Assembly: GCF_963675165.1 (NCBI RefSeq)
Contig: NC_087379.1
Coordinates: 5,349,442-5,413,441 of the forward strand
Direction: 5' to 3'
DNA length: 64,000 nucleotides
Origin: Halichondria panicea
Taxonomy: Eukaryota > Porifera > Demospongiae > Suberitida > Halichondriidae
The position numbers and the translations under genes are program-made. This document shows positions 29,092 through 64,000 of the stretch, one piece after another; position 1 is the first letter of the stretch, and every line of letters begins with the position of its first letter. The notes below the pieces were generated by a model, which saw nothing but the letters and a program-made list of their open reading frames with translations, had not been told where the DNA came from and did not search any database.

Positions 29092-29370
29092 TTCCTCAGT
29101 GAGAAGATAGTCCAGTCACTCTCTGAGAACCTGAAGGCCTTGGCCCTCCACCTCCTGTCAGCTGGGCTCATCACTGTGTCCATTCTTGAGAAAACCAACG
29201 AGTTGAATGAGACCAAAAGAGAGAAGGCCACCAGACTGTATACTGCCCTGCTGGGTGGGGTCAAACACTACCCCCAAAAGTACCACCAGTTTGTCTCAAC
29301 TCTCAGACTCAACCCACTACATACTGACTTGGTCAAAGAATTAGACAAAAGTACAAAGTCATGCATGTAG
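29092..29370 (+). pseudogene. Orphan CARD-like exon, relic of an ANK-ZU5-CARD gene
   Basis: The translation EKIVQSLSENLKALALHLLS...ITVSILEKTNELNETKREKA...LHTDLVKEL matches the terminal CARD-like exon of the gene at 34719-48197 almost residue for residue. The part that in the intact gene supplies the acceptor and first codons (ctctcctgcag plus the following 30 or so bases) is missing, so it cannot be spliced in the same way, and no ZU5 or ANK exons precede it within the window. It is best read as a leftover of a third gene unit or a partial duplication. Confidence 0.75.
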
Positions 29371-34718: not shown

Positions 34719-37700
34719 ATGGACATACACGATGCTGCCAGTGCTGGTGATTTAAGTGGTTTACAAGATGCCGTCAGGAGGGGAGATGATGTCAACAGTG
34801 TGGATGAAGTAAGCTGCATGTGGGTATGTAGAGCTGAAGCCGCTGTGAAAGTCTGTTTTTGCTAGCGCTAGCTGTTGTGCTAATCAATAATTACACGAAT
34901 TTACGAGGTCGCTTGATTTCATGCTTTAATTAGTCTTGTCCCGACATATTCTTAGACAGTGTACCTCTCATTTGAGAGGTAAAGTCGTTCGTCACCATAC
35001 AGCCGTATTTCAGGCTATATAAAATATTAAATGAGGGAGCAAACCACTTCAGAACCATACTGTGGTGATATAGTTGATGCATGTGCTCTGTCACCGGAAT
35101 AACTGTGGACAAGAAATTCCATGGAACATTGAATTGGGCGGCCATGGGACTATTATTTGTGTTCGTGTGTGGATTTAATCTGCCATCCGAGCTAAGGTTA
35201 TAGATGTGTTTTCAAAACTCTCTCACTCTTGTAGATTGGGAACACTCCACTCTTGTTGGCAGCCAGTGGAGGTCACACTGACTGTGTTACAGAGCTGCTC
35301 TCCTCAGGAGCCGTGGTGGACCTGGCTGACAAGGTGAGTATCTGATACTAAACAGATGTGTCTATAGGACTGATGTGTCTATAGGCAGCATGTTCGTGAC
35401 CATAATATCACTCATTAGGAATTATTTACTACTAGTAGCCCAGAATCCAGCAATCTGATTGGTCAGTACAGGGTTTATATTATAGTTGTGACACATGCAC
35501 GAGTGCCACATGGGATATATTGGCTCAGTATAGTGACTTAGGCCCGAGGGCCGCAGGCCTCGAGGGCAAAGGCACTACTGAGCCAATATATCCCATGTGC
35601 GCAGGAGTGAGCTGTATAACAACTGATTTGTTGCATTCCTTGTGCATTCCTTTCCGCCGTACACATCACTCCTTTTATAGGACAACTAGTTTCAACTACT
35701 TGTGGTGGCTGTGGAATGCACCAGACGCATGAAAAACGTTTTCTGCCTACCACTGAATCTGTTTAACAGTGTTATACTTATAAAAGGGACCGTTTCAGGT
35801 TACTGGGTGGAGGATGGGCACTTTAGTCATACTATGCCAGTATCTAGATAGTGGCATAGTTCAAGGCTTGACCTGTGCCATAATTATGGCAGATATTTAT
35901 GGAACGCCGTTTGCAACAAAATTCAGGCAGAATGTGAGGCGTGTGCATCCAATATAAAATCGATTTTTGAAGATTGATTTTTAATAATCGATTTTTTACA
36001 GTTGATTTTCGATTTACACGTGAACGATCTTTGACAATCGATCTGATAATCGATTTTTGAAATTCGATTTTTGATAATCGATTTTTGATAATCGATTATT
36101 GAAATTCGATTTTTGATAATCGATTTTAGAACTGCTCTGAAGGTGGGCTGGGGGGGCCCCTGTCTAAAGCTGTATCACATGATACTATCCTTAGAGAAAT
36201 TTTGCATTGAAGAAGCCACTATTCATGACTTCTATTCTATCTGGAATCACCAAACTCTTTCTCAGCTCTTTCTCTAAGCAAGCTCTTTCTCTAAGCACAC
36301 ACAAGATGGCCAAATAAAACAGTGCTGGCGAGAAAGCATACAAAAATGGGTGCACAAAGAAACTAAATAAGTAGCACCAACTGAACAGTTCTGATTTTTA
36401 CTGTGACTTATGGCCCTCCTTTTTAATGGTTCCAAAAACAATAATGTTTCGCTCTTGCGTTATAGTCTATCATGTGAGATAGCTAACCAAGCCAAGCTTT
36501 GATTCCAGGCCGCGGAGAAGGAGTTTGTGCATGTTCTGAGTTTCAAGGGCGGCCTAACTGTAGCCTTGAATCCATAATCGGCCTGGATTCGAGACTAGTA
36601 TCAATCAATTGCGATTTTTGTAATCGATTTTTAAAAATCGATTATCAAAAATCGAATTTCAATAATCGATTATCAAAAATCGAATTTCAAAAATCTATTA
36701 TCAGATCAATTGTCAAAGATCGTTCACGTGTAAATTGAAAAAATCAACTGTAAAAAATCGATTATTAAAAATCGATCTTCAAAAATCGATTTTATATTGG
36801 ATGCACACGCCTATCACATTCTGCCTGAATTTTGTCGCAAACGGCGTTCCATAGATATTGGCACAGTGTTTCCTTTGATCTGCCCACTCAAAATGCAACA
36901 AATTTCCCATATTAACCTGTAAATTCTCATATGAACCTGTAATTTTCATGTTCACAACAACCATTCATTATTTTGTGTTTTTCAAACATGTTTTTTGTAG
37001 ATTGTATTATAAAAAACAATGAGAAGTAACTGTTCTGTTTTTGGTAATGACATAAAATTATAATGTTCAGTCGCTGTTAATACGTTGGTTGTTGGATGTA
37101 GGCATAGAGAGATTGATGGTAACGTTGCAGGTACTAAAGGTAAAGTTTGGAGGCATAAATTGACAGCAGTTGGTTTGTGAGTTCTGTTGCACTGCCATCT
37201 GTGAGTGATCAGTGTGTGCCAGTATGTTAATTGGCTTTACGTTGAGGATGTCTGAAACTGACTTCTTTTGACACTCAGAAGTTCTCTTGTAGCTGCGAAC
37301 TCCTTCCAAGCTTCGGTGTCCAGTTGTTTCCATTGTCATTTGTTCGTCCACTCCAGCGTTGTAGAGTCTAGTAGAAGCAGTTGCACGGAGAGAATGATTC
37401 GTTAGGTATTCCTTAATACTAGCTGCAGAGCATATAGTCGAGCCACTGTTTGGTCCAGTGTATTGTGGCCAATTGGTTTGTTCGAAAACCAAGTAGTTAG
37501 TAGGTGTTGGGTTTTTCAAGGCTCGAGAATTTTTAGGACAATCTTTTGGCAGGAGCTGCATGTTGGTAAAGCTGGAATAGCCGAACGAAGCATCTTTCAG
37601 GGTTTTCAGGATTGTTGTAGTGAGACACTACTTTTGGCTTGAGTTTCTTGCCTTTCAAGCCTCCTGCATGGTCGATTTTTAGATACGTCTTCTGTGTATT

Positions 37701-43700: not shown

Positions 43701-43982
43701 TTTAGCCAATCAGATCAATTACAGATGATGTAATGTAGTCTAAATTAAATATACAGTATACATACATGTACACTATATAAGTGTCTTACATGTGTTTACT
43801 TTTATTTAAGCACTGATAACCTCAGTACTTTTCTATGGGAACAAACTGATACATTAATACTGTCAATGATGTAATTTAGTGGTCTTAACTGTATGGAGTG
43901 CAAACTACAGTTCCAATATTACACACACCCGAATAAACATGAAACCATTACATGTGCTCACCCCCCCACACACTCACACACA

Positions 43983-44048
<66 letters not shown>

Positions 44049-47000
44049 CACAGTCACGTGTACCAGTCCTTCCCAAGAACTGGACTGTTGTCACTGACAC
44101 AGAAACGTGAGTGACGATTGCACAGTTGAGTCACTAACTTTATGAATGTGAGTCAACTTTAGGAAGAAGCCAGTCTACCAGAACAAGGCAGCAGGGGAAA
44201 CCCTTTCCACACCACCTGGATGTAAGTGTGTGCTTGTGCTGTATCTAGCACATGGTTCTGTGTGTTTATCTCCTGTGTATAGATCCCCTGCACCAAACCT
44301 CTGCACACCCTGATGTCACTTTCTATGGCGTGCCTCAAGAGAAGGAGTTCACCTCCAGTGGTGGCCATGCTGACTTTGATAGTGGAGTGCAAGTGACTGT
44401 TCCAGCTAATGCTGTCCCATCAGGGACCTCTGTGAGCATTAAGGTACAACCCAGTCTCGCTCCCAAGGATGTGTTTGTGATGCCTGAGGGCATTCAGTCT
44501 GCCAGTCCGTCCTACTTGATCTCTGGTGAAGGTCTAAACGGAGAGGTGACCCTGAGCATGGAGCATCATGTACGAGTGTCCACCCATCAAGAAGCTGATG
44601 ACCTCCTTTTTCTCCAAGCTGACTCGTCTCCCAAGAGATCTGGTACAAAAAATGTGTACGAGTACCAGGAGATACAAGAGGCAAGGTCAGTGTTCACTCC
44701 TGGAGGGAATACCGGGAGACTGACACTGGGCACACGACTGAAGAAGTTCTTTAAAATTGGCCAGAGGAGGAAAAAAGGTAAGTATTTGGAAATGTGAATC
44801 ACTTCCAATTCAACAAAATGCATGTACATGCAGGCAAGACCGACAGTAATCTCTACACTGTCAGAGTCTACCGGTCTCCTCCACACACAACTGGTGACAG
44901 GATGGCTCTTGTCATTGTCAGCTACTTTAACCGTCTGTTTCTTGATGTACGTACATTGCAGTTTTGTGATTGTACGTGAATAACTGTTTACCTCCATGTG
45001 CAGTTCTTGCAGAGGTTTGAGGTTGACATCATTCCCCGAGAGTATCCACACTTGTCAAGTAGCCCTGCTGATAAGACAATTAAACAACCTCTTTGCTTTG
45101 TCCAAGTTGATGCAGTACTGGAGCTAGTCTGTGATCCAGCCTGGAGGAGTGTGCCTGACCAGAGAATGGTGAGTGCTTTCAATAGTTAGAAGAAAAACCC
45201 TTATATCGTATGTGACTTTTCCACACTTTTTTGTGTCTCCTATTAATTCATTTTGCCGTGTTTGCAGATTTCCCAAGAAGAAGTGGACCTGCCAGTGATT
45301 GGTAAGTTCTCGCCAGAGGAGCTTCAGTGCTACCCACCCAGGATAGTGTGTCGGTTCTTCCCTGAGCAAGGAGCTGCCTCCTGCACCACATGCACTCTCT
45401 CACTGTATGGCTTTGACAAGCCAGTCAGTATGGACATGGCACTGCTCACTCCTCAGAGATCAGTGGACACTAAACAACTCAAGGTGTCTCACTCAACCTC
45501 TGTTAAAGTCAATATATGAATGTTAGATACACTTCACTTGTGCCATCAACCCAATGTTCTGCATCATCCTACACTTGTTAAATTTTGGCTAATGGATGTC
45601 TGTAAAATGTCCTTTACAGTATATGTTGCTTCCTTGAGACCTACGTCTGTACTGTGTGTACTGCATGTGGACATTCTCAATTCGTTATAATGCATGTACC
45701 GTATAGCAGGTTATTTTCGTACGGTAGAAGTTTTCGTATTTTTCATATTGTATACATGTACATAATAACATTATCATTCGAAATTAAAACTGAGCTACCG
45801 CGATAGGTTCAACGTCACTATCCTGAGCTGTACGAGTATTTAGAATACGAAATATTTGATTGGGCAGTTCATACGAACATTTACCCGTATGTATGTGATT
45901 GTAGGAAGCCACTGAAGTACTGAGGAGAACAGTTGGGGAGATGACCACCTCACAGCTTGGCTCTACTGTGGAGACTGTACTGTCACTAATGGAGAAAATG
46001 ACAACTGCGCTTCAGTGAGATGTCTACTATCTTAATGTAGCACTGTATTTACAATATCTCCCACCTCAGGTCATCTTCTCTGAGTGAGCTGACAGCCCAC
46101 ACTGACTCCATACGGACAGAGATAAAGGCTGTCCTTGTAGTGACCAGGAGGGTTGTCCAGGAGTGCACAGTACAGAGCATCAGTGAGAACATTGAAGCCA
46201 GTCTCTCTAAGATGGAGACTTTATCTCACCAGCTTTGTAAGGTTGCCAAGGTCAAACTCAGATACTGTCAAGAAGGTGAGAACGTGTGTTTATGATATCA
46301 AGTGTTAGCTCTCATTCTCAATGGTACAGACCAGTCAGAGGAGACAGCTGCTCTTGTTGACCTGGTGGAGAATGGAGCTAATCTGTTGAGAGCTGTGGAC
46401 TGTCTACTCAGGGACATCCACACGCTCAGTGGAGTCAGTGGTGAGTGTATTTCAAAAGGGGCAAACCAAACCCAAAGAGTGGGCGGGGAGGAAAAAACTT
46501 AATTCTGTAATGGCAGTTTTTTGCTCTTCCCAAAACTTTGCTTTATCTAGAGGTAATGACGTCCTGAAAGAATTTAAATGCACAATGCTAATAATTATAG
46601 CCCATGGTATTTTGTCGAAATCGACAGTTTTTTGGCTACTCCCAGAACTTTACCAAGACGAAGTGATACGCCTTGAATGTTTTAGTTTTGATATTGATTG
46701 TGAAGTTATGTATGACCTCCCAAAAGAAGCTTGCTTAACTGGAAAATATACATTCAGAGGCGGCACAATGCCAACCTTCAAATTTAGATATCATAATTAT
46801 TTGAATTTCTAAGAGGGAGCCACATCCAAGGGGGGGGAGCAAAAGTCTAACTTCCTCCTGGCTGTATTATAATTATGTTCCATAATCCTTTCCACTTCCT
46901 CCTATTGTGTACTACCAGCCATATACAGTGTATTGTACATGTATTGAGTCTATTTGTTCACATTACATGTACTTAGTGCTGATCACATGATCTCCAGCCA

Positions 47001-48197
47001 ATCAGCTTATCTGAAAGTAGTCAGGTGACCATGGATTAAATAACTTAATTCACACTTAAGTGTGCTTTAAGTTGGTTTGTTAATGCACACTTTTATCAAA
47101 CAATCATAATACAAGCAGATTGAATCTGAATGTCATCATAATAATACAAGCAGATTGAATGTGTACATACAAGCAAAGCTGAAAAGTATTAGAAAGTTGA
47201 ATGTTATTGTTTCGACTTGTTTCATGTGTAGTAAGTGTACCGAATTGCTGACTTGACCATAGCATCGCTTTTTCGTCTGGAGAAATAGGCTCAGCTTGCT
47301 TCGAAGATGTACATACCTGTACCTAAGCCAGATCCATATAATCGTTTCATCAAAGCTTCGAATATCATAGCTTTCCAAAAGAGCAAACCAGATACTCATT
47401 GCCATATAGTTTGCGCACAAAGTTTCCCATCCAGTAAGCCAGATCAGCTGGAGGCATATCCAGTAGTGGGATCGGGACTGTTGGTCAGCAAGAGAAATAA
47501 GTCGAGAACATGCCCAGTCAGTCCAGATAGCTTTAGATCGTATCTCCTTCTTCTTTGCATCAGTTACTGGATCTACAAACCTACTAAAACTTACTATTAC
47601 GTCTAGCTAGCTAGCTAGCCACCAGCAACTGATTTAAAATGTAGCTAGATCTAGCTGCCACGAGGCTAGAGCTCACGTGACAGCACTAAATCCTTTAGAA
47701 CACACCTAGCCAAGTCACGTGTTTTAATGCTGGTGCACTCGGATGGCCTCTCGGTTACGTAATGCACTCGGCTGCGCCTCGAGCACCATCCTCGGCACGC
47801 AGATTAAAACACTTAATCTTGGCTAGGTGTGTTCTAAATAATACTTAGTCTCCAGTGTGTGGGCGTATCATGCTCTAACCATTTCCTCTCTCCTGCAGGT
47901 AACGCTGGCTACAGTGTGCTTATGAGCTGCAGTGAGAAGATAGTCCAGTCACTCTCTGAGGACCCGAAGGCCTTGGCCCTCCACTTCCTGTCAGCTGGGC
48001 TCATCACTGTGTCCATTCTTGAGAAAACCAACGAGTATGTGAATGAGACCAAGAGAGAGAAGGCCACCAGACTGTACACTGCCCTGCTGCGTGTGGTCAA
48101 ACACCACCCCCACAAGTACCACGAGTTTGTCTCCACTCTCAGACTCAACCCACTACACACTGACTTGGTCACACAATTAGATAGCAAGTACATGTAG
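34719..48197 (+). CDS. ANK-ZU5-UPA-CARD protein, 16 exons
   Basis: Predicted cytoplasmic adaptor or sensor. Exons: 34719-34808, 35235-35333, 40611-40709, 41126-41224, 42371-42469, 42704-42793, 44054-44106, 44163-44221, 44283-44777, 44834-44946, 45004-45168, 45268-45483, 45905-46014, 46070-46275, 46309-46440, 47899-48197. The joined length is 2424 nt, 807 aa, with every phase consistent. Exons 1-6 encode ankyrin repeats (about 1-192), mostly one 33-residue repeat per 99 nt exon (TPLLLAASGGHTDCVTELLS type). Exon 9 holds the ZU5 domain (TSSGGHADFDSGVQVTVPAN, about 235-390). Exons 10-12 look like a UPA domain. Exons 13-15 are helical. The last exon is CARD-like (EKIVQSLSEDPKALALHFLS ... KREKATRLYTALL). 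ANK-ZU5-UPA plus a death-fold resembles ankyrin, UNC5 and PIDD-type layouts. The exon 7 acceptor is preceded by a CA microsatellite. Introns 2, 4, 6 and 15 are loaded with mobile elements. Confidence 0.87.
35481..35634. mobile_element. Foldback element in intron 2 of the first ANK-ZU5 gene
   Basis: cacatgggatatattggctc followed by agta pairs exactly with tactgagccaatatatccca followed by tgtg; a weaker pairing extends each arm to about 50 bp. The loop is GC-rich (cccgagggccgcaggcctcg). Confidence 0.75.
35892..36859. mobile_element. 956 bp foldback element with arms made of ATCGATTTTT motifs
   Basis: The element spans 35898-36853 with gatatt on both sides (35892-35897 and 36854-36859). Arms of about 250 bp are reverse complements: tatggaacgccgtttgc.acaaaattcaggcagaatgtga, then ggcgtgtgcatcc, then many copies of taatcgatttttga. 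The 450 bp centre has no coding region seen. Confidence 0.88.
37067..38601 (-). pseudogene. Tyrosine-recombinase (Crypton/DUF3504-like) gene, broken
   Basis: Read on the minus strand it starts with an acidic leader (38601-38365, ending in an in-frame stop), then KLSSSSASTSKQVRAFAL and an N-terminal SAM-like/core-binding region (YCFKLWNDWCEYRLK ... SEFPPDTLHHIVSG), a frame change near 38045 leading to IQRYMRWNGNPGIDLFKD, an in-frame TGA near 37697, the conserved GGLKGKKLKPKVV and NPERCFVRLFQLYQ, another frame change near 37565, and the catalytic part NHSLRATASTRLYNAGVDEQ followed by TGHRSLEGVRSYKR with the His-x-x-Arg, His and Tyr of tyrosine recombinases. At least four lesions make it a fossil. 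It lies in reverse orientation within intron 2 of the ANK-ZU5-CARD gene. Confidence 0.82.
38610..38744. mobile_element. Foldback element, GTTAGAyACTGTTT family, copy 2
   Basis: gttagatactgttt plus atctatgggaattataagcc pairs with ggcttataattcccatagat plus aaacagtatctaac. The loop has gtagtaccctcgctttgctcg, as in copy 1 at 13553-13692. Confidence 0.85.
38889..38940. mobile_element. Solo CAGAGGAGG-type terminus (copy C)
   Basis: cagaggaggttggccacgcg and the following tcatcatt match the outer end of copy A. No partner end was found nearby, so it looks truncated. Another isolated end (agtatacctcctctg) is at 13797-13811. Confidence 0.6.
39329..39865 (-). repeat. 590 bp dispersed repeat, reverse-orientation copy in ANK-ZU5-CARD intron 2
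   Basis: It reads from attatgcctcggtgcgcatg through a GT tract, tttctataggcttctagtca, cactagaacgctagctatt and ggcatcgatcgtttttaaca to cagcacctgcggtgctttca. Same order as the reverse of 24612-25193. Confidence 0.9.
41289..41370. repeat. Short CAGTGGAACCTCC-type (pogo/Tigger-like) element
   Basis: cagtggaacctccataaaac plus ggacacc at the left and ccttgggaggtttc at the right resemble tiny members of mariner/pogo-type families. The right end is imperfect. Confidence 0.4.
41547..42029. mobile_element. Foldback element AATGAATAACATCAAGAGTGC in ANK-ZU5-CARD intron 4
   Basis: Arms of about 75-90 bp pair (caagagtgcataagaagaga, tactgatac, cacaaacactgtgcataaag with their complements at 41945-42017). 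The left arm has a 19 bp insertion (ctatcactataattattac) relative to the right arm. Confidence 0.8.
42879..43740 (+). repeat. Dispersed element, long plus copy in ANK-ZU5-CARD intron 6
   Basis: It begins with a hairpin (gtagaatatgcgtctacgta paired with its complement ending gacgcatattctac), then an A-rich tract, an ORF-like stretch (LNLCELDELESCERHQLTEK, about 43116-43290), and a 3' minisatellite of cttcctgtagaatatgcgtc-type units (43595-43690). The reverse copy at 53379-54036 lacks about 230 bp of the middle. Confidence 0.85.
43971..44053. repeat. CA microsatellite leading into the exon 7 acceptor
   Basis: A CA tract of about 75 bp ends in cacagtcacag at 44053; the homologous site in the second gene (about 60577-60601) is also a CA tract ending in cattcag. 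Confidence 0.92.
47190..47600 (-). pseudogene. Second tyrosine-recombinase (Crypton-like) fossil, N-terminal part
   Basis: Read on the minus strand, KKKEIRSKAIWTDWACSRL, then in another frame PPADLAYWMGNFVRKLYGNE, corresponds to the core-binding region that precedes the catalytic domain in Crypton/DUF3504 proteins. Stops and frame changes are frequent, and no catalytic part was found. It sits in intron 15 of the ANK-ZU5-CARD gene. Confidence 0.55.
47694..47838. mobile_element. Foldback element TTTAGAACACACCTAGCCAAG
   Basis: tttagaacacacctagccaa plus g.cacgtgttttaa pairs with ttaaaacacttaatcttggc plus taggtgtgttctaaa. It lies about 60 bp upstream of the CARD exon. Confidence 0.85.
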
Positions 48198-48366
48198 TTT
48201 TTCTACACGTAACGTACATGCAAAATTATAATTGTGCATACCATCATTCTTTTTTTGTACTTAAGATTGAACAAAAAATTCTTATCTCATAACATTTTGC
48301 ATGCATGCTGGATGTCATTAAGGAGGGGTCCAAATCAAAGGGGTGTGGCTAGTATCAAACTTGAAA

Positions 48367-51300: not shown

Positions 51301-54300
51301 TTAATGATAAGATAAATGTGACGTTGATTAATTTTAGCCTCGTTCCCAGGCCTTACTTTTTCTTGCTGTTGTCACTGTTCATCCATAAACATAAGAAAGA
51401 CATAGTGAGGCAGCAAAGAAAGAAATGGGCGTACAGTTAAGAAAAAGTAAGGCCTGGTTTGGGAAATCGCGTGATCCACAAGGATTTTTATGAACGTGGG
51501 CGATATGTAGCCCACAATCGTGACGTAAGGTATTCTCCCACGCATTCAGAGTAAGACTGTACTGCACTGTACTGCACTGTACTGAGACAACCACCAAGCT
51601 GTGCTGCAAGTCAGATCAGAGAACCAGCGTGGCCAGCTCTGGTGGCAGTAGCTACCTGCTATATGATAATGATGACTAAGCTATTCTACTAGAAAGACAC
51701 AAGAAAAGGTAATAGTGATAGAATCTAAACACACAATCTAGACTAGTAGATCATCTAGCTAAGCCTAAGGTATAGCTAGCTTAGTGCTTGCAAACTTCCA
51801 GTTCCAAGTCCATGTCCAGCTTGCTGCAGGCAAAGTTTTATTAGTCGTAGACCTCTGCGTGGGCAGTCCAACATCTCTAGCTCAGTATGCCCACGCTCAT
51901 TTTCACCCTTCTACCACCCTTCTACCCTCACGCGACTTCCCGATACAGGCTCTCCTTTTTCCTAACTCTACGTCTATTTCTTTCTTTATTCCTCCAATTA
52001 ATACCGTATTTTATCTCATTGAACGAATAATACAGTATTTTATCTTATTGAACCATTGTGATAAAGAACAGAAAAAGGAGAGCCTGTGTAGAGGCTAGAT
52101 TAATTTGTCATCGTCCTGTAATCAGTCTTAATAAAGTTGAAGATAATATAATTATAAAAGTGGTCGTTGGACAGAAGTAATAAATCGAAAGTGCAATACC
52201 TAAGAGGAACAAGAGGAACATCAAGAAGCAAGAGAAGTTCAAAAAGTACTGGAATAAACATTATTATAATATTTATGCCTGGGTGCGCATGCGCAAGCGA
52301 GGTATACGGTATAGTGTGTTTGTGTGTCTGTCTGCGTGTGTGTGTGTGTGTGTGTAGACTGTTTCAGCTGCTCAAGGATCATTGAAGTGCAAGTAAGAGT
52401 TTCTATAGGCTTCTAGTCATGTTTTCTTGGCTTGGTATTTGTGGATTTGCAAAATAAAGCTTCGTTCTCGAGTTATGCCTAGTTTTGTACTTGGAATGCC
52501 ATTGCAGCCTTTTCAGAAGAGTCCGTAGCAAAACTTGTTCACCGAGTGTTGATACTCTACTTAGTAGTTAACTCTGCACTAGAACGCTAGCTATTGGTAG
52601 CTGCAAGAGTGAGAAGAGAGCTGCAAGGCTCTGCTGACTTGCAGCCAGACTTGAACCTTTGGCATCGATCGTTATTAACAACGATCATCGTCGATCATTA
52701 CCCACTCTTTGAGTTTTCCTGGATTCTGCATGCAGCAAAATTAAAAATGTTCATCATGATAATTAATCAATGTGTGTATAAAAGCTAGCTATTAGTAGCT
52801 TTATGTTATGTAACTTTGGCACCTCCACCGAGGCATCAGCACCCGCGGTGCTTTCATTTATTCATTTATCGATGTGGATAATAATTATGGCAGCCATGTT
52901 TATACTGTACTATACTGTAGATATGTGGTAGTCAGTGCATACGTCTATAGCATAAATAGCATACCTGAAGTGAGAGAATGGAGAGCTGAGCTGAAGAAAG
53001 TGTTTATTGATGTCACAGCCACGCCCACCTCATAAGTTGCCATGTGCGTTGCTGTGGCAGTCATTTAAAGATGCGGAATTGCGTAGGTAAGAAAAGTGGA
53101 GCCTGAGAGGTCATCTGCCTCTTGGAAGCGAACGCAATTCTGAGAAAAACGCCCACGGTCCGGGTTCTAGTCGACTAGAGGCTGTATCTAGAATCTTCTG
53201 AACATGTCTGTACAAGGAGGAAATGCTTTCCAAGAATGTTACTTACTTACTTACTTACTTAGTCAGTCAGACGAAACACGGTGAAATATGAAAATAGTGC
53301 AATTTTTCAAATATCAATATTAATGCATGTGAATATTCATTGACTATAATATCACACATTACACAGATAAAAGCTTTTGACTACATTACATCATCTATAA
53401 TTGATCTGATTGGCTAAAAACATTAGATTACATGGAAGCATAATCTACAAGAAGGTACTTATTCTACAGGAAGTGGTACAGGAAATGGGTGCCTATTCTA
53501 CAGGAAGTGGACACATTCTACAGGAAATGGGCGCATATTCTACAGGAAGTGACAAATAATTTGCAGGAAGTTCTCAAAAGTTGGAATGAAATTTTTAGTG
53601 AAAGTGACAAGAAGATGACAAAAACATTATAAAAAACACAGAATGCAATAGTTTGTTCAGTCACTATCCATTCTTTCCATGTCCACTGTTGCTTTGTATT
53701 GCTTTTTCAAGCGTTTCACAAGCTCTACTAAGTTTTACTGTAGTTTTTTGTTGTTTTGAAGCCGTCTTCTTGTCTTTTTCTGTCAACTGGTGTCTCTCAC
53801 AGCTTTCCAGCTCCGTCCAGCTCGCACAAATTCAATTTCTGTTGCTACACACCAAACCTGGTTTTTATAACCGCGCATGCGCATTGAAGTCCAAGTTAGA
53901 TAGACCACACCCACTCGTAGAATATGCGTCTTAGTAACCACCTTGGTTACGGTTAGATTCCCTCGGCTTTGCGCCTCGGGCTAACCGCACCGCGGAGGTT
54001 ACATAGACGCATATTCTACTCTTAGGTGTAGTCTATATTCTATACATCTATCCAGTTAGTTTCTTGATGTGGCCTTTCCCTGCAGAAATAGAGCAGTCTA
54101 AACACGAGTCAAAATTTGTGCAATAATTGAAAACACACACTACTGCACTGTCAATCCTATGTACAACCTACTGGTTGTACTAATGTTCGTGACATTAATT
54201 TTAAGGAATTGTTTGCATGTATGTATAGTCGACATTTTATCTTGCTGAGCTGCATACATTTTCTATGTGTTGTACACTAAATGAATATACATGTATTAAA

Positions 54301-57300
54301 AAGAATTACTTGTTAAACGAGGCCTACAAAAAATTTGTGCAGTTTAATAGCATAGTAAATCACAGATACTGTATATATATGCTTGATCAGAGGCCGTGGC
54401 TACTAAATTTTTGCTGGCAGAGGAGGTTACAATTCAAGAGAGGCATTTATTAGGCTTACTAACACCCCATGCAGCTAATTCAGTTTGTCATCAAAACTTA
54501 CTCCAACTCTGCCATGAGACTAACCAGCTGCTACTGTATGACTGCCACCAGAGGATGCGTGCACGAATCACCACAAGTTCAGTGCATTGATGTCATTGGG
54601 GTCACATCATAATGTCCTGGCCAATATTACACTAAGTACTTGTAGTGATTCGTGCACGTATGTCGGACCTACTGTGGGCTGCCACATGCAGAGACATAGC
54701 CTCAAAGTTCACTGAGGCTATACTATTTGAGCGATTACTATTGCACTGAAGATGGGCTGTAGAGAGAGGCTATACTATTTGAATGCGGAAAAAGCGGCCT
54801 CTGATCAAGCATATATGGTTGTTGCATTTTTTGCTCGTTGCCAATTCCCTTCCTTTACTTTATTTATTGTCTATCACCAGAGGAGGTCCGACATGCGTGT
54901 ACGAATCACTAAAAGTTCAGTGCAATGTGGCCAGGACGTTATCACGTGACCGCAATGACATCAATGCACTTAACTTGTAGTGATTCGTGCACGCATGTCG
55001 GACCTCCTCTGTCTACCACACAGATGTTAGGGTCTCACTCTTGTAGGATGGGTGGACTCCACTTTGCTTGGCAGCCAGGGAAGGTCGCACTGACTGTGTT
55101 AGACAGCTGCTCTCCTCAGGAGCCGTGGTGAACCTGGCTGACAAGGTGAATATCTAATACTAAACTGATGTGTCTATAGGCAGCATGCTGGAATTATTTG
55201 CATGCACGTACAATTATGCATGAATGGACATTAATTGCCTTCATTTTCATAAAATTCTGTGGACAAGAATTCGGTGTGACTATTATTTGCTTGTAACAAT
55301 CTGCTGTCGCTTAATAACTACGAGCTACATGTACGTAGCTTGCTGAAAAGTAGGGTTAGTGTTATGTATACTTTCGTATGTGACGTCAGATGCAACCACT
55401 CTATGAAAGTAAAAAATACCAATCCCCTCCTTTACCGTATTTAAATGTCAGATGTGTTGACAATAGTTACTGTATGCTCTCACTCTTATAGGGTGATGGT
55501 ACTCCACTCTATTGGGCAGTCAGGGGAGGTTACACTGACTGTGTTAGAGTGCTGCTCTCCTCAGGACCCGTGGTTGACCTGGCTGACAAGGTGAGTATCT
55601 GATACTAACTGAGCGGTCTATAGGTAGTATTTTCGTGACCATCACATCATAATTATGCTACATGTAGTGATGGTTGTGGGTGGTCCCTATGAGATTCCTA
55701 AGGCACTAACATTGACATTATACGTACAAATACAGCATTTTCAGTATAGGTTAATTACCAAAAAAAAAAAAAAAAAAAAATTACGTAACCTACATATAGC
55801 TGCGGAGAATTCTTTCAGCGTAATACCTAATTTGATACTGTAAATAACCACAAATACCGTATCGGATGCAAAACTCCAATGGTACATGTACATGTATAGT
55901 GTGGTGCTTTAGGTGAAAATCGCCTCCTGCATGGGTGTAGACTCGCAAGCCACTTTGCTCATCATTGAACAGGGGCGGGAGAAAAAGGACTGCCTGGTGA
56001 CTCTGGGACAGCTTGTGTATCTCAAAAATGCTATTACGTAATAATGTCACATGCAAATGATGCGGAGTTATAGTCAAGAGTTCAGAGTCAAATTTAGTTA
56101 AAGACATGCATACAGATCTATCTATAGCTAGCCAACAATGTAGGTTTTTTATGAGTATGCTCTGTGAGGAAACAATCCTCCTCAAAGTTTCGGAAGCACC
56201 GACTAGTTTTATATCATTTCTTGAGCTTGAGCATGTCATTTCTTTCACACAATGTGCTATCTTACCCTTATAGGTAAATTTGCTCGATCCTTGTGCCACA
56301 ACTTGTGGATTAGCATGCATGGAACAGCTGATGGACGTAGAAATCTTGGCAGCCCTTCTTTGAACCGAGTGACAGCAATTTGAGACAGCTTGTGTCTGAC
56401 AACTACTGTATGACTGTAGCAATTCAACTGCATGCTGCCCTCTGCTGGTCTCTTATATGACTATTATATCCTATATAATTATAGCTGAATGCCTGATGTT
56501 GTCATCAATCTTCCCTTTTCTAGCACTAGCATCCATTCTCAATCTGTATAGCTAAGAATCCCGCGAGCACTTGTACATGTTGTAGGCTACGCAATTCTAC
56601 TACTTTACACTATGTTTGGATCAGATAAGGTAGAAAAACAACAGAAGTGGTTCATGTGATTTCTACATTGAAGTCAATCTATACATATACTGGCTCTGAA
56701 GCAATCTTGTGTTTCGCTCTGAAACTCCCGTGAAACCCGGAAACTTATTGTATCCAATGCATGCTTCTTAAAGACCCCTCCAATTAACACTTAACCTAGT
56801 GCCCCCTGATGGTGAGTATCATTTGGAAAATGTTATCGTGAAGTACATAAACATGTAGCTAGAGGTGTACACACAGAATCCTTGTGTACAGAGCAGATTA
56901 CAAAAGGACCGTCTTACGCTGGGAATCACATCTCGTGCAAGTTTGCAAAGCATGACCTTATATGCAAAACCGATAAAGTGGGTCTGCGGGCGAGTGTTAA
57001 TTGAGCTGACGGTGCACTTTTACTAGCACATAGGTGAATAATTAAGATTTAAAAGCTACAGCTAGCTAGTTAGCTATAGGCCTGGTAATAAGCTCTCTCT
57101 TCTAAGAACCCCAGTAAGACTCCCTATATTGCAAAAACAGAACGCCTAGTATGTTTTAGTGTAAATTTGCAAACTTTCTCCGTACAAAGTGACTGGATAT
57201 GCTCCATGGAGCTATAGTAGGGGATATCCCCCTTTCCTGTATGACACCCTGCTGTTGTGCTTGTGTTCTCACTATTGGATGTGGTTGAAAATGTAGAGCA

Positions 57301-60300
57301 GTAAATGTCTGTATTGTGCAATGTACATTCATATTGTGTTGTCACTGTCTCCACTCTTGCAGGATGGGGACACTCCACTCATGGAGGCAGCCTACGCTGG
57401 ACAGGAAGATACAGTAAAAAAGCTTCTCTCATCAGGGGCTTCCGTTCTCTGCACTAATGAAGTGAGCACATGTACTTTATAGACTACATAATTATTGCAG
57501 TACCCATGAATAAAAAGTTCCCGTTCCTGTTTAATCGCATAAAAAAACCAATGAACTCATTGTTGTATTATGCAAAAACGCTACCATTTCCACGCATGTG
57601 CAGAAAAATTGCTGAGTAAGCAGAATCGTTAATTTGTGATTGTGCATGCGTGTGTACAGTGTCGTTAGCTTGTGTATACTACAGTATAGCTGATTGTGTA
57701 GTGCTTTAATCCTCTTAGTTAGCCGTTTCCCCAGTTGTTCTCGGTCTCGCATCAGAGGAGGAATGCCAGGGTCAAAAGGTCACTAATTAAAACACCACGT
57801 GGCCCTATGTTTTATATGTAAAACTGAGTTACCCTCGCGCCACTGAGTTTATACACCACCAATAGCTTGATCCTCTTTATAATCACAACAGAAATCGGTT
57901 GAGCTATCGCGCCCCAGAGGAATCAGCTTGAGAGAGGATATCCGGCCAGGATTTAATTGCAACCTTTGACCTTTTATTACATCCTTCGAAACCACAAGAT
58001 ATGGAAATTAGCCTTCCATGGCTAGGGTATAAATTTTGATGTACTGGCTTGCTGCACTTGATAGATCTAGGTATGATAAGCTTTCCAAGCAGACAAATAA
58101 AGAACAGAAGCGCTAAGCTGCTATATGCAGCAAAGGTCAAGAACCCAGAACAAGAATGTGTAATCTTTCATTAAATGTGACCCTATTGACCCTGGCGTTC
58201 CTCCTCTGGTCTCGCATCAGCTTCAAGACTAAGTTGCCTTCATGCAAGTCATCTGTGACCTGGAATGACCGTTTTTGAAGACCATGCATCGTCAGTTACT
58301 GACTGTCTGTGTACATTATACTATAATAGTACCGTATAGCGGGTATATTTGGAGGGTAAAAATGTTCATGGTTTTCGTGGATTAGACATGTACCCAAATT
58401 TAATATTGCAATACTGTGCAAAAAGGCACTATATTCCACGAAAATTAAATCCGCGAAAACCTTTCTTAAGGCATTTCCGCGAAAATTTTTACCCTTGAAA
58501 TATATCCGCTATACGGTAGCTAGCTCATTGTACAAAACTAGAGCACTGAAGTGCTAACCCTCAGCTGTTGACATGAATCTACAGTAGCAACAGACTATTA
58601 TAGGATCACTTCAGCTGTAAATATGTAGAGTTACCTTGAATAAAGGTCGCGTGTACTAGCTGTGCAAGTTTAGCTTTGCTCGCTTTTTTTTTGACAACGA
58701 AGCTTTAACATCGAAAGCTGCCACTATTAAAAGTAATAACTTGTTGTGTGTGGAGGCTATCCATGCTGTAAACGCAATGCTGTGGCATCCAGGTGAGTAG
58801 ATTCACCTGTAACACCAACAGACTACTATACCCGTGGCCGCCCACGCACACCTCGGGTAATAATCATACAGTTATTGTATCATTGTGTAAATAATTTCAA
58901 TTTTTCATGATGACGTCACCGTTTTATTCTATAACGAAGGAAGTGGCCGTTTGCATCCGGTTTAACGTTACTGTTTAATACATGCATTTTAAGGAACAGG
59001 AACGTTTTATTGATGGGTACTGTAGTTGCGTGACAAACAGCTTTACTACCTTTTACAGTAGTTAATGACTGAACAGAGCTGTCATTTGTACCTAAACCTA
59101 AACCTGTGTTGCCATGCAGTATTGCTGACAGAGCAATTAAAGTACACACGCCATACGCATTAGACCACTTTACCTCTTACAATATGTACGTCTCATCCCT
59201 TCATATGATCATCATCACAGGATGGACAGACTGCTCTGATGAGAGCCAAGAGATCATATCGCCCTGACCCTTCAGTAATAAAGCTGTTGGAGGAAGCTGC
59301 TGAATCACATGTGAGTCCATACCTCAATAATGCACACATGCACTGCATGATCATGCATGATGGTGTTTTAGTTTATTGTGCCGAATAATTAAATAGTGCA
59401 TACATTATTATGTACATCGAATAAACAAGATTTCCGAGCATTTTGCTATTTTGACAATTTAAGATCATAATTATAAGCTCATACGTACTTTCAAATACGA
59501 TTATTTTGTAGATTATTTAGTAGATTATTTAGTGCAAACTACAGTTCCAATACCTTATAGCTAGTAATTTCATAGCAGTTTTAATAAAATAACACAGACA
59601 TTTGCAACATTTACCTAGACAGTGAATTGCTTCTACTTCTCTTCTGCTCTTGCTCATGCACGCTCTCTCCAGTGTTGAAAAGTCAGGTTTTGTCTTCTTT
59701 TGTACTGTGGTAGAGTGGTGGGCGTTTTCTGTCAGTACCGACAGGCTCTGGTAAGTCTACTTGCTTCCAGACGCTTGTTTGATGCCATCTCATGCAGTAA
59801 AATCAGTGCTCCTCGTATGAGCCTAGAGTTGTGATGGCGATTTCTGTCTCTTGACACTAAAAGTTTAATCAACCACGTGGGTGATCGTAGTACAGTAATG
59901 AACCTCGATTATCCGGCTTGGCAGTTTTCTTTTTAGAAAATGGGCATGTCCCTCAAATGCGCGTGCGCGGTACAGCTGTTACCATGGATACATGCCTGCT
60001 TATCTTCTGCGCATGTGCAGACAATCATGTGGCACTGCTGTTTATCAATAAAGTGGATGATTCAAGGCGTGGTTTATCTATTAGATTATCCGGCATATTC
60101 ACTTATCCGGCCTGCTTCTGGAACCAATTAAGGTGTCCGGATAATTGAGGTTCTACTATACTGATAAATTACAAAGAGTTTTACTAACAAATTTACTATT
60201 GAATCCACCCACGCACAAATTGTGGTTACCAGGCCCTCTAGTGAGAGGGGCTGGGATCGAGGCTACATGGATATCTGCGTGTGTATTGTTATTGTACTAC

Positions 60301-63300
60301 CGAGGGCAGTTCTATGTATTCCCTCGAGTTCTATGTATTCCCCGAGGGAATACATAGAACTGCCCTCGGTAGTACAAATCCAATATACACCCTTGATAGC
60401 CATGGTACAACTATTGTATGTACATCAAATAAACCTTACGATAATTTTTTGCTATTTTGATAATTTCAGATCATAAACTCATATGTACTTTTAAATAGTG
60501 TCAATTAACTGCAAACTACAGTTCCAATGTTACACAAATCCAAACAAGCATGAATACCATTACATGTGCCCCCCCACACACACACACACACACACATTCA
60601 GTCACGTCCGCAGTCTGTGCAGGTCCTACCCAAGAACTGGACTGTTATCACTGACACAGAAACGTGAGTGACTATTGCACAGTTGAGTCACTAGCTTTAT
60701 GAATGTGAGTCAACTTTAGGAAGAAGCCAGTCTACCAGAACAAGGCAGCAGGGGAAACCCTCTCCACACCACCTGGATGTAAGTGTGTGCTTGTCCTGTA
60801 TCCAGCACATGGTTCTGTGTGTTTATCTCCTGTGTAGATCCCCTGCACCAAACCTCCGCACACCCTGATGTCACTTTCTACGACGTGCCTCAAGAGAAGG
60901 AGTTCACCTCCAGTGGTGGCCATGCTGACTTTGATAATGGAGTGCAAGTGGCTGTTCCACCTAATGTTGTCCCAGCAGGGACCTCTGTGAGCATTAAAGT
61001 CCAACCCAGCCTTGCCTCCAAGGATGTGTTTGTGATGCCTGAGGGCATTCAGTCTGCTAGTCCGTCCTACTTGATCTCTGGTGAAGGTCTAAACGGAGAG
61101 GTGACCCTGAGCATGGAGCATCATGTACGTGTGTCCACCCATCAAGAAGCTGATGACCTCCTCTTTCTCCAAGCTGACTCGTCTCCCAAGAGATCTGGTT
61201 CAAAAAGTATGTACGAGTACCAGGAGGTACAAGAGGGGAGGTCAGAGTTCACTCCTGGAGGGAACACCGGGAGACTGACGCTGGGCACACGACTGAAGAA
61301 CTTCTTTAAAATTGGCCGGAGGGGGAAAAAAGGTGAGTATTTGGAAATGTGAATTACTTCCAATTCAGCAAAATGCATGTACATGCAGGCAATACTGACA
61401 GTAACCTCTACACTGTCAGAGTCTACCGGTCTCCTCCACACACAACTGGGGACAGAATGGCTCTTGTCATTGTCAGCTACTTTAACCGTCTGTTTCTCGA
61501 TGTACGTATATTGCAGTTTTGTGATTGTACGTAAATAACTGTTTACCTCCATGTGCAGTTCTTGCGGAGGTTTGAGGTTGACATCATTCCCCGAGAGTAT
61601 CCACACTTGTCAAGTAGCCCTGCTGATAAGACAATCAAACAACCTCTTTGCTTTGTCCAAGTTGATGCAGTACTGGAGCTAGTCTGTGACCCAGCCTGGA
61701 GGAGTGTGCCTGACCAGAGAATGGTGAGTGCTTGATTTTGATCAATAGTTAGAAAAAAACAACGTTATATCGTAAGTGACTTTTCCGCACTTTTTTGTGT
61801 CTCCTATTTGCCATGTTTGCAGATTTCCCAAGAAGAAGTTGACCTGCCAGTGATTGGTAAGTTCTCACCAGAGGAGCTTCAGTGCTACCCACCCAGGATA
61901 GTGTGTCGGTTCTTCCCTGAGCAAGGAGCTGTCTCCTGCACCACATGCACTCTCTCACTGTATGGCTTTGACAAGCCAGTCAGTGTGGACATGGCACTGC
62001 TCACTCCTCAGAGATCAGTGGACACTAAACAACTCAAGGTGTCTCACTCAACCTCTGTTAAAGTCAATATATGAATGTTAGATACACTTCACTTGTGCCA
62101 TCAACCCATTATCCTACACTTGTTAAATTTTGGCTAATGAATGTCCGTAAAATGTCCTTTACAGTATATGTTGCTTCCTTGAGACCTACGTCTGTACTGT
62201 GTGTACTGCATGTGGACATTCTCAATTCGTTATAATGCATGTACCGTATAGCAGGTTATTTTCGTACTGTAGAAGTTTTTGTATTTTTCGTATTGTACAT
62301 AATAACATTATCATTCGAAAATTAAAACTGAGCGATAGGTTCAACGTCACTATCCTGAGCTGTACGAGTATTTAGAATACGAAATATTTGATTGGGCAGT
62401 TCATAAGAACATTTACCAGTATGTATGTGATTGTAGGAAGCCACTGAAGTACTGAGGAGAACAGTTGGTGAGATGACCACCTCACAGCTTGGCTCTACTG
62501 TGGAGAGTGTACTGTCACTAATGGAGAAAATGACAACTGCACTTCAGTGAGCTGTCTACTATTTTAATGGTAGCACTGTATTCACAATATCTCCCACCTC
62601 AGGTCATCTTCTCTGAGTGAGCTGACAGGCCACACTGACTCCATACGGACAGAGATAGCGTCTGTCCTTGTAGTGACCAGGAGGGTTGTCCAGGAGTGCA
62701 CAGTACAGAGCATCAGTGAGAACATGGGAGCCAGTCTCTCTAAGATGGAGACTTTATCTCACCAGCTTTGTATGGTGGCTAAGGTCAAACTGAGAAACTG
62801 TCATGAAGGTGAGAACGTGTGTTTATGATATCAAGTGTTAGCTCTCATTCTCAATGGTACAGACCAGTCAGAGGAGACAGCTGCTCTTGTTGACTTGGTG
62901 GAGAATGGAGCTAATCTGTTGAGAGCTGTGGACTGTCTACTCAGGGACATCCACACACTCAGTGCAGTCAGTGGTAAGTGTACATTATTGTCAGAGTCTG
63001 TGCATGTATTGAGTATCTACCTATACCGTATAGCGGGTATATTTCGAGGGTATAAATTTTCGCGGAAATGCCTTTAGAAATTAAGGTTTTTGCAGATTTG
63101 ATTTTCGTGGAATAGCAGCCTTTTTTCAGCATGCATGCATGCGATATTAAATTCGCGGTACATGCTTAATCCGTGACAACCATGAACATGTATACCCTCT
63201 ATAGAGGGTATAAAATCAAAACATAATACCGTATAGATACGGTATTATGTTTTGATTTTAGATCAATGATCTCTGCTGCTCAACTGCAACCCCCCTCCCT

Positions 63301-64000
63301 CCGTTTCTTTTAGCTTCCATAACATGGCAGTTACAGTAGGATAACATGTTTGAATTTTAAATTTCAACAGGGGCAAACCAAATCCAAAAGGAGGGTGGCA
63401 ATTAAAAGCCTCCCTAATTTCCCCCTGAGATTAATGAGATTAATATCCACGTACAGTCTTTTGTCGAAATTTGCTGTTTTTTTTCTTCCTCCCAGAACTT
63501 ATAGCCAATGTATGTAGAGCTACAAAATGCATTTTTTTGTTTTGAGTTATGACCTCCTGAAAGAAGCTAGTGCCATATTCCTTTCCACTTCCACTGTATT
63601 GTACATAGGGTTCACATTACATGTACTGTACTTAGTGCTTCAGTGTGTGGTCGTATCATGCTCTAACTTTCTCTATTGTCATTGTATTGAACTGCATGCA
63701 ATCCACGTACACCATTTCCTTTGCTGACCCTCACCCTATCCACACTACAGGCCTGGCAGAGAGGATAGACATTGAACACCCTCTACTCAACAACGAGATT
63801 GAGACAACAGAGTTCGTATATTTGGCGGCTCATTTTGACAACGTGATAATGTACTCTCAGATGTTGGGCCTCAATCGTTCTCAGCAAGCTAGTGTGAGGC
63901 AGCTCCTAGTTTTATATGACATGCAAACGGCCATGATGGAGTGCTTATCTCTGTGGCAGAGGAGTAACCCAGCTGCTGCAACTTATAGAACTCTTCTGAA
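48367..64000 (+). CDS. ANK-ZU5-UPA-DEATH protein, 19 exons seen, 3' end outside the window
   Basis: Head-to-tail paralog of the preceding gene, starting 169 bp after its stop. Exons: 48367-48456, 48908-49006, 49529-49627, 50142-50240, 50625-50723, 55047-55145, 55492-55590, 57363-57461, 59221-59310, 60602-60663, 60720-60778, 60838-61332, 61389-61501, 61559-61723, 61823-62038, 62437-62546, 62603-62808, 62842-62973, 63751 to the window end. All phases agree. Exons 12-18 have exactly the lengths of the paralog. Exons 2-7 are six 99 nt ankyrin-repeat exons (TPLYVAAREGHTNSVRELLS type), against three of that type in the first gene; two ANK exons of another type follow in both. ZU5 (TSSGGHADFDNGVQVAVPPN), UPA-like and helical parts are nearly identical to the paralog. 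The last exon seen is different: VYLAAHFDNVIMYSQMLGLN ... LSLWQRSNPAAATYRTLL, a DEATH domain. Whether a CARD exon follows cannot be seen. Confidence 0.85.
49650..49960. other. Possible repeat end in intron 3 of the second ANK-ZU5 gene
   Basis: The stretch starts with agggtcattccatatcaatt and differs from the matching intron text around the other ANK exons, so it looks inserted. No partner end or ORF was found. Confidence 0.3.
50758..51277. mobile_element. Foldback element ATCAAAACTAAAAAACATTTGC
   Basis: Arms of about 115 bp pair (caatgtgaacgttgctagga, gaaaagcgcgaaaaagcgag-type text, gagttatgcactcg). ORFs containing the peptide AEFLVSSLFRAFLFLAILA appear on both strands only because the arms are complementary. 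Confidence 0.88.
51337..51474. mobile_element. Foldback element GCCTCGTTCCCAGGC, short copy
   Basis: gcctcgttcccaggccttac plus tttttctt pairs with aagaaaaagtaaggcctggt plus ttgggaaatcgcg. Related to 19334-20324 and 51930-52094. Confidence 0.82.
51930..52094. mobile_element. Foldback element GCCTCGTTCCCAGGC family, copy with the uninterrupted TTAA site
   Basis: caggctctcctttttc pairs with gaaaaaggagagcctg. The interior (cctccaattaataccgtatt) is the reverse complement of the empty site of the piggyBac-like insertion at 19392-20255. Confidence 0.85.
52272..52855 (-). repeat. 590 bp dispersed repeat, second reverse-orientation copy
   Basis: It runs from tatgcctgggtgcgcatgcg caagcgaggtatacggta through a GT tract and the same internal landmarks as 39329-39865 to cagcacccgcggtgctttca. 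In intron 5 of the second ANK-ZU5 gene. Confidence 0.9.
53379..54036 (-). repeat. Dispersed element, short minus copy
   Basis: Reverse complement of 42879-43740 with about 230 bp missing from the middle. It keeps the tgtagaata-type minisatellite and the terminal hairpin (cgtagaatatgcgtcttagt paired with cagacgcatattctact-type text). A TTAC tetranucleotide run lies just upstream at about 53237-53262. Confidence 0.85.
54540..54685. mobile_element. CAGAGGAGG-type foldback element (copy D, degraded)
   Basis: Left end cagaggatgcgtgcacgaat at 54549, right end cgtatgtcggacctactgtg at 54676. Flanks gactgccac and ggctgccac form a 9 bp duplication with one mismatch. The arms match copy E 200 bp downstream. 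Confidence 0.75.
54869..55019. mobile_element. CAGAGGAGG-type foldback element (copy E) just upstream of an ANK exon
   Basis: Ends at 54878 and 55011 with arms cagaggaggtccgacatgcg / cgcatgtcggacctcctctg. Flanks tctatcac and tctaccac form a duplication of at least 8 bp. The same intron position without insertion (ctatcacacagatg) is visible at about 41066-41082 beside a paralogous ANK exon. Confidence 0.88.
55790..56422 (-). CDS. 210-codon ORF in an intron, unknown
   Basis: I do not recognise it. It begins with ATG and is open for 633 nt antisense inside intron 7 of the second ANK-ZU5 gene. The sequence is rich in Ser, His, Cys and Leu with no clear domain, signal peptide or membrane helix. 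A 20 bp poly-A lies beside its 3' end (about 55760-55779, plus strand), so it could belong to a retro-copied or mobile sequence, or be open by chance. Confidence 0.25.
   Translation of the reverse strand: MLQSYSSCQTQAVSNCCHSVQRRAAKISTSISCSMHANPQVVAQGSSKFTYKGKIAHCVKEMTCSSSRNDIKLVGASETLRRIVSSQSILIKNLHCWLAIDRSVCMSLTKFDSELLTITPHHLHVTLLRNSIFEIHKLSQSHQAVLFLPPLFNDEQSGLRVYTHAGGDFHLKHHTIHVHVPLEFCIRYGICGYLQYQIRYYAERILRSYM
57744..58217. mobile_element. CAGAGGAGG-type element (copy F) with perfect 9 bp target duplication
   Basis: Ends at 57753 (cagaggaggaatgccagggt) and 58208 (ccctggcgttcctcctctg). gtctcgcat precedes (57744-57752) and follows (58209-58217) without mismatch. The 456 bp element has no coding domain that I recognise. 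Confidence 0.92.
58330..58518. mobile_element. TACCGTATAGCGGGTATATTT element, full copy
   Basis: Left taccgtatagcgggtatatt, right aatatatccgctatacggta, inner arms cgcggaaa/ttttcgtgg-like. 189 bp with TA at both borders. Confidence 0.88.
58530..58862 (+). repeat. Dispersed repeat, copy 2 (related to 11645-12252)
   Basis: Same start (actagagcactgaagtgcta), middle (ctgtggcatccaggtgagta) and end (cagactactatacccgtggc) as the earlier copy, about 270 bp shorter. Confidence 0.65.
59891..60163. mobile_element. Pogo/Tigger-like non-autonomous element CAGTA.TGAACCTCGATTATCCGG
   Basis: tacagtaatgaacctcgatt plus atccgg pairs with ccggataattgaggttctac plus tatactg. Such ends are typical of mariner/pogo-type elements; about 270 bp, no transposase. 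Confidence 0.8.
60291..60378. mobile_element. Short foldback TTGTACTACCGAGGGCAG
   Basis: ttgtactaccgagggcagtt plus ctatgtattccc pairs exactly with gggaatacatagaactgccc plus tcggtagtacaa; a second ctatgtattccc lies in the loop. Confidence 0.85.
63024..63210. mobile_element. TACCGTATAGCGGGTATATTT element, decayed copy
   Basis: The left end taccgtatagcgggtatatt is intact; the right half (aaattcgcggtacatg ... catgaacatgtataccctct) is degenerate. It lies in intron 18 of the second ANK-ZU5 gene. Confidence 0.65.
63190..63260. repeat. Two adjacent perfect palindromes
   Basis: tataccctctatagagggta closing with ta (63190-63212) is followed, sharing the junction, by a 50 bp palindrome (63211-63260) with 24 bp arms taaaatcaaaacataatacc plus gtat around a 2 bp centre. 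Confidence 0.92.

Follow-up and report, generated by a model that had tools for sequence, protein, structure and literature searches.

Closely related genes of the breadcrumb sponge Halichondria panicea, a demosponge with a 131-Mb genome, join a common sensor-like body to different terminal death-fold exons. We consider it probable (about 0.7) that bodies and ends reassort within this family, that one end, DEATH-A, was first placed at a former CARD acceptor and later spread, and that an end swap rewires the sensor. The window analyzed is a stretch of 64,000 nucleotides (C3:5349442-5413441), and the pattern found in it is real and larger than is visible from the window alone. At the DNA level, the analysis demonstrates a shared body with unrelated ends, a phase fit between them, six of six body-end combinations, a scar of the CARD acceptor, and non-monophyly of the DEATH-A genes.

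Two tandem genes in the window are confirmed to consist of an ANK-ZU5-UPA-like-helical body followed by a CARD end (gene 1) or a DEATH-A end (gene 2), with the coordinates summarized in Table 1. The gene 1 model has 16 exons (34719-48197) encoding 797 aa, or 800 aa if exon 11 uses an upstream acceptor; its 15/15 acceptors are AG, its 15/15 donors are GT, and its phases are consistent. The 19-exon model of gene 2 (48367-64079) reaches 79 bp beyond the window and encodes 905 or 908 aa; the acceptor of its exon 14 (61568) is GG, with an in-frame AG 9 nt upstream. In both genes, each ANK repeat is encoded by one 99-bp exon of phase 0-0. The linker exons of gene 1 appear WW-like by eye, and a Pfam search returned no match for them. 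A perfect inverted repeat of 21 bp (47694-47714 / 47818-47838) lies within the 865-bp insertion in the last intron of gene 1.

Table 1. Coordinates of gene 1 and gene 2 features, in window positions
Feature	Position	Strand	Basis
Gene 1 exon 1, start codon	34719..34808	+	exon model
Gene 1 exons 2-6, ANK array	35235..42793	+	exon model, Pfam Ank
Gene 1 four 99-bp ANK exons, phase 0-0	35235-35333, 40611-40709, 41126-41224, 42371-42469	+	
Gene 1 ANK-like 90-bp exon	42704-42793	+	
Gene 1 exons 7-8, linker	44054..44221 (44054-44106, 44163-44221)	+	exon model
Gene 1 exon 9, ZU5	44283..44777	+	Pfam ZU5 23.6 bits, cut-off 21
Gene 1 exons 10-12, UPA-like region	44834..45483 (44834-44946, 45013-45168, 45268-45483)	+	exon model
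Gene 1 exons 13-15, helical linker, final donor phase 1	45905..46440 (45905-46014, 46070-46275, 46330-46440)	+	
Gene 1 CARD-linked intron tract, upstream half	46920..46976	+	98% identity
Gene 1 insertion splitting the CARD-linked tract, 865 bp	46977..47841	+	
Gene 1 CARD-linked tract, downstream half, reaching the acceptor	47842..47898	+	98% identity
Gene 1 exon 16, CARD and stop	47899..48197	+	exon model, predicted fold, homologs above Pfam CARD cut-off
Gene 2 exon 1	48367..48456	+	exon model
Gene 2 exons 2-9, ANK array	48908..59310	+	exon model, Pfam Ank
Gene 2 seven 99-bp ANK exons	starts 48908, 49529, 50142, 50625, 55047, 55492, 57363	+	
Gene 2 ANK-like exon	59221-59310	+	
Gene 2 exons 10-11, linker	60614..60778	+	exon model
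Gene 2 exon 12, ZU5	60838..61332	+	Pfam 20.9 bits, cut-off 21
Gene 2 exons 13-15, UPA-like region	61389..62038	+	exon model
Gene 2 exons 16-18, helical linker, final donor phase 1	62437..62973	+	
Gene 2 last intron, scar of CARD acceptor tract	63610..63667	+	84% identity
Gene 2 DEATH-A-linked acceptor tract	63674..63750	+	100% to query tract
Gene 2 exon 19, DEATH-A	63751..64000, stop at 64079 outside window	+	exon model, Pfam Death

A third gene starts at 64586, about 500 bp past the end of gene 2, with the order ANK exons, short linker, DEATH-B and CARD; no ZU5 was found in it. Its array comprises 21 ANK exon matches on one strand (68226-87226 in window coordinates, L009-L011), where near-identical units repeat at intervals of ~3.88 kb, indicating that the sensor array has recently grown in tandem. 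Transposase-like and tyrosine-recombinase-like frames, labeled by eye (31602-33812 on the plus strand and 37067-38601 on the minus strand), flank and invade gene 1. Further upstream lie two tandem, related multi-pass transporter-like genes (21880-27460; label by eye) and a decayed third copy of them (~27900-28540).

The original prediction paired exons 9-15 of gene 1 with exons 12-18 of gene 2, and this numbering proved exact: the exons correspond one to one in equal lengths. The near-identity claimed for the bodies likewise holds, at 94.1% DNA identity over 2,221 aligned columns (44240-46449 vs 60797-62982), with introns as similar as exons. The HEL2 bases that tell the genes apart read ..CAGTGCAGTCAGTG in gene 2 and ..CAGTGGAGTCAGTG in gene 1. 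Identity breaks ~9 bp past the shared 5′ splice site and is then patchy up to a 39-bp block of 92% identity at the gtgtgtgg(g/t)cgtatcatgctctaac text, where the homology of the last introns ends, as had been noticed. The terminal coding exons, CARD in gene 1 vs DEATH-A in gene 2, are indeed different and unrelated in sequence. The missing end module was sought in the last intron of gene 1 and between the DEATH exon of gene 2 and gene 3, and nothing in either interval scored better than E 0.15; extension past 64000 revealed no CARD exon after the DEATH exon within gene 2.

Profile and structure searches bore out the domain labels to different degrees. Pfam CARD matches 0/26 members of the gene 1 end exon, whereas homologs and predicted fold support the CARD label: distant paralogs of the exon score above the Pfam CARD cut-off, and the confidently predicted fold is the six-helix bundle with a broken first helix expected of a CARD, with CARDs making up 42 of its 47 best structural matches. 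Three intermediate paralogs meant to bridge the exon to Pfam CARD gave no match, and a PDB sequence search with the exon placed a weak match to the Dronc CARD (E 0.71) behind an unrelated protein. In 2/14 control genomes, the Pfam CARD search gave sub-cut-off matches too. The DEATH label of gene 2 likewise stands through its family, since the exon itself scores 19.4 bits against a Pfam Death cut-off of 22.6, while Pfam Death picks up 23/24 DEATH-A members at E<=0.1, the best at 2e-7; a DEATH-A profile run against the PDB matched designed repeat proteins and no death domain. The ZU5 profile places gene 1 above its cut-off and gene 2 just below it, and the UPA label is tentative, with no match in Pfam or in a PDB sequence search. 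A whole-protein structure model (P0001, 17 rows) has a mean pLDDT of 49.7 and is poor outside the ANK repeats; its residues 229-556 fall under 50 and are unreliable for the UPA-like region. An NCBIfam search returned only generic ANK matches, far below cut-offs. The HF/S or SF/S cleavage motif ([HS]F[ST]) is absent from 22/22 family proteins.

In a protein search with the gene 1 body, 18/20 matches belonged to H. panicea and no other species was represented at the sensitivity used (7,991 candidates scored). The family appears to number several dozen sensor-like genes, all of them close relatives with interchangeable ends: at least 38 close ZU5 exon copies at >=72% identity (including one on C27 that repeats C6), at least 23 DEATH-A exons at >=63% identity (fragments excluded), at least 18 DEATH-B exons at >=81% identity, and, as a lower bound, more than 30 CARD exons at >=67% identity, some of them broken. 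The DEATH-A of gene 2 is 39% identical to DEATH-B. All three ends are entered in phase 1 from the phase-1 HEL2 donor. DEATH-B, which often has CARD behind it, is internal, and its acceptor and GT donor are both in phase 1. Because the donor phase is conserved and the end exons share it, CARD, DEATH-A and DEATH-B are exchangeable without a frame break, and their boundaries show the phase compatibility expected under exon shuffling. A second partial DEATH-A piece (the last ~35 residues) recurs as a remnant at nine loci (L046, L048, L061, L062, L063, L064, L066, L075 and L076), where it lies 3′ of either the full exon or its shortened relic. The reading of a second helical exon after DEATH-B as a relic, proposed from a phase misfit, was dropped because NCBI models P0010 and P0012 use this exon with an extra linker exon.

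The UPA-like exons fall into two types that are ~37% identical to each other (12 alpha and 25 beta places). Each body was assigned the nearest end exon that follows on its strand, provided that this exon lies within 20 kb and ahead of the next ZU5; 37 bodies were typed in this way. The count covers neither C14:4210463, which is 38% identical to the nearer of the two types, nor ZU5 places lacking a typed UPA exon, such as C3:5637276. Alpha bodies carry 6 CARD, 4 DEATH-A and 2 DEATH-B ends, and beta bodies 10 CARD, 11 DEATH-A and 4 DEATH-B ends, so that 6/6 combinations are present; across these 37 bodies, UPA type shows no association with CARD or DEATH-A (Fisher p=0.70). UPA types and ends are mixed in the same way among the NCBI proteins and the two genes of the window. 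One NCBI model (P0011, at C6:6137576-6133909 as placed by a near match of its end) has a PH domain (60.3 bits) instead of the ANK array, a predicted architecture suggesting that the sensor end can be exchanged as well.

A body tree built from HEL to HEL2 (27 genes, 366 columns) places the ends on their bodies; loci with helical exons beyond 1.5 kb lie outside it (for example L015, L016, L029 and L036), and so does L045, which is gene 2. The DEATH-A label needs 7 changes on this tree, and DEATH-A bodies as one clade are rejected (AU p=0.003). Shuffled labels average 9.1 changes, so the DEATH-A label is hardly clustered. As the marker is short, the strongly supported branches alone force at least 2 changes, and 62/500 shuffles are as low as 7, the value of 7 is no firm count of exchanges. 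CARD exons directly after HEL2 are also mixed among other bodies, with 7 changes. The clearest pair is C3:7787908 (CARD) and C3:7740363 (DEATH-A), which are identical in the 366-bp tree region and 95.7% identical over 1.4 kb to the end of the last intron, then divergent.

Positive selection on the end exons, evaluated by dN vs dS, is not supported overall: DEATH-A pairs (n=231) have a median dN of 0.158 and dS of 0.242, with dN > dS in 10, and CARD pairs (n=351; L031, L033 and L043 excluded) a median dN of 0.066 and dS of 0.198, with dN > dS in 26. The tract flanking DEATH-A has a median divergence of 0.10, lower than at synonymous sites, which fits conversion or constraint.

The intron sequence ahead of the ends records the junction. 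A ~108-bp tract lies 5′ of the CARD exon in 28/30 loci, regardless of upstream content and often at 97-100% identity. A scar of this tract, a piece cut off near the CARD acceptor, precedes DEATH-A by 79-140 bp in 18/23 loci, including all 15 loci with helical exons within 1.5 kb, and it is followed in position by DEATH-A's own tract, which is present in 23/23 loci. Four of the five scar-less DEATH-A loci have a DEATH-B exon ~5.5-6.5 kb upstream. In a genome-wide search with the CARD tract, 40 matches were scored among 51 candidates; as assigned from their coordinates, 31 of them lie at CARD exons and the other 9 ahead of DEATH-A. With all 40 at one of these two exons, the tract as a dispersed repeat was ruled out. 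As read from these intron remnants, the scar suggests that DEATH-A took the former position of a CARD exon. An isolated CARD exon relic also occurs in the window far from ANK-ZU5 bodies (29098..29374, plus strand; 85% identical, first codons lost), with a linked intron tract at 76% identity and a transporter-like gene upstream.

In the simplest history, DEATH-A would have been set once, with ~80 bp of its own intron, at the CARD acceptor, and the product would have spread by crossing-over or gene conversion within the near-identical bodies and last introns; the direction and number of later exchanges can only be inferred. Gene conversion of bodies would leave the same pattern as repeated end swaps. 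The original prediction offered a swapped terminal exon or an ancestral gene with both ends. The swap is supported in the form of an exchangeable module, by the phase-1 entry, the lack of association between UPA type and end, and the scar in 18/23 loci. The other history, in which DEATH and CARD stood in series and each copy lost one with no exchange, finds its precedents in long forms running from DEATH-B to CARD (C3:8220999/8220468, with a short intron, and C3:7063909/7071163), in NCBI model P0004, which splices HEL2, DEATH-B and CARD in series and reads ZU5-UPA-HEL-DEATH-B-CARD, and in two long loci in which DEATH-B and CARD still enclose a truncated DEATH-A exon. These forms are set against the DEATH-A of gene 2, which is distinct from the DEATH-B found in them, against the remnant of a CARD acceptor on the upstream side of DEATH-A, an order that loss from a gene with DEATH ahead of CARD would not leave, and against ends that are unassociated with UPA type; serial loss is an unlikely account. 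An assembly error or a haplotype mix, in which the two ends would be allelic or misjoined, is very improbable. The copies are very close, and the end of gene 1 (C3:5397339) matches one 168 kb away (C3:5565685; L015/L016) at 100% over 3,297 bp, but each arrangement is found at many loci and on several contigs, the duplicated pair at 5.56-5.58 Mb has the same order of CARD and DEATH-A, and each end is carried by independent NCBI models. Next to gene 1 and its distant copy, the copies of gene 2 are 96.9% identical, indicating a recent duplication or conversion.

Splicing might instead pick the end, with proximal DEATH-A and distal CARD as alternative last exons of one locus, and all donors and acceptors are in phase 1. 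Among the 14 NCBI models with body and end both placed exactly, all of them predictions, 11 use the adjacent end and three join a non-adjacent one; some of the end diversity may therefore come from splicing. P0005 (LOC135337740 X2) skips the proximal DEATH-A for a CARD 22 kb off, P0019 skips one DEATH-A exon for another ~6 kb further, and P0002 (LOC135333670 X2) joins the gene 2 body, over 797 residues without mismatch, to a CARD exon at C3:5496585, directly behind a retroelement-like stretch (label by eye). The original prediction had named a gene 2 transcript ending in the CARD of gene 1 as evidence against an effector switch; this predicted isoform does end in a CARD, which lies 83 kb downstream and is not that of gene 1. 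Such a join would have to bypass gene 3 as well as two CARD exons that lie closer, reads are easily mis-mapped among near-identical paralogs, and the modeled connection may reflect inter-gene splicing or a modelling artefact. With the adjacent end prevailing, we regard splicing as an unlikely explanation of which end is used. In protocadherin-like systems, exons are chosen by splicing and transcripts join one body to several ends; the three non-adjacent predictions suggest similar joins. It is an unlikely idea that DNA and RNA both mix sensors with outputs, with tandem ANK-ZU5 bodies splicing past a proximal DEATH and over gene boundaries to shared distal CARD exons, through the conserved phase-1 donor and a strongly conserved acceptor tract, while germline recombination reshuffles the modules. 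If true, an animal that lacks adaptive immunity would combine sensors and effectors in this way.

Returning to reassortment of bodies and ends, its functional consequences are drawn from known families. The ANK repeats would bind a partner, and the ZU5/UPA-like region would keep the protein inactive or aid its assembly. The CARD end would recruit CARD-bearing caspases or adaptors, and the DEATH end death-domain adaptors; by analogy with NLRP1/CARD8 (PMC7794386, PMC3210808) and PIDD, the end exon should decide the signalling partner, and an end swap would rewire one sensor to another output, as may have happened repeatedly in this family with different cell-death or immune outputs. Since the 22 proteins lack an HF/S or SF/S motif, release by self-cleavage is not expected, and ligand-induced assembly via the ANK and ZU5 parts is probably the more likely trigger. 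The family may have an innate-immune or cell-death role. One study of H. panicea describes most immune receptors as expressed individual-specifically, and ankyrin-repeat proteins as part of LPS-responding networks (PMC8242945).

The phenomenon belongs to a familiar class, domain shuffling in immune-like families that have expanded, and the DNA evidence for it is unusually clear here. In such families, domain shuffling has mostly been inferred from architecture lists; in Halichondria, the exchange is legible in the DNA through the same bodies, the same donor, a datable junction scar and end types that show no association with body type within one genome. Vertebrates have ZU5-to-CARD wiring in NLRP1/CARD8 and ZU5-to-DEATH wiring in PIDD, and both coexist on one recent body in Halichondria, which makes the family a test bed for the origin of new sensor-to-output wirings and for why a sponge retains both ends. 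A literature search of the main texts of one open collection returned no description of a Halichondria ANK-ZU5 family with exchangeable ends.

Ankyrins, with the architecture ANK-ZU5-ZU5-UPA-DEATH, share with gene 2 the sequence of ANK repeats, then ZU5, then a death domain, whereas the Halichondria family has few ANK repeats, each on its own 99-bp exon, a single ZU5, many copies and CARD ends. PIDD and UNC5, described as ZU5-UPA-DEATH in PMC3210808, resemble gene 2 in having ZU5, another region and a C-terminal death domain; the sponge genes differ in an ANK array in front, one ZU5, a UPA-like region, the missing HF/S motif and DEATH ends that exchange with CARD. In NLRP1/CARD8, where FIIND (ZU5-UPA) precedes CARD, the UPA promotes CARD filaments according to PMC7794386, and these filaments may serve as a working model for the gene 1 type, likewise a ZU5-bearing body with a C-terminal CARD, although the Halichondria proteins are without SF/S (22/22), NACHT or LRR and have ANK or PH in front. 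In amphioxus and Amphimedon, death-like domains occur in many architectures particular to the lineage, UPA-ZU5 fusions among them (PMC2575513, PMC8195603); the sections consulted are architecture catalogues and describe no CARD/DEATH exchange on one ANK-ZU5 body. A parallel in family history is zebrafish NLR-B30.2, a large clustered family whose N- and C-terminal domains have different histories, attributed to exon shuffling and gene conversion (PMC4852459): the domains are others, and it is the recognition domain, B30.2, that reassorts there, whereas in Halichondria it is the signalling end.
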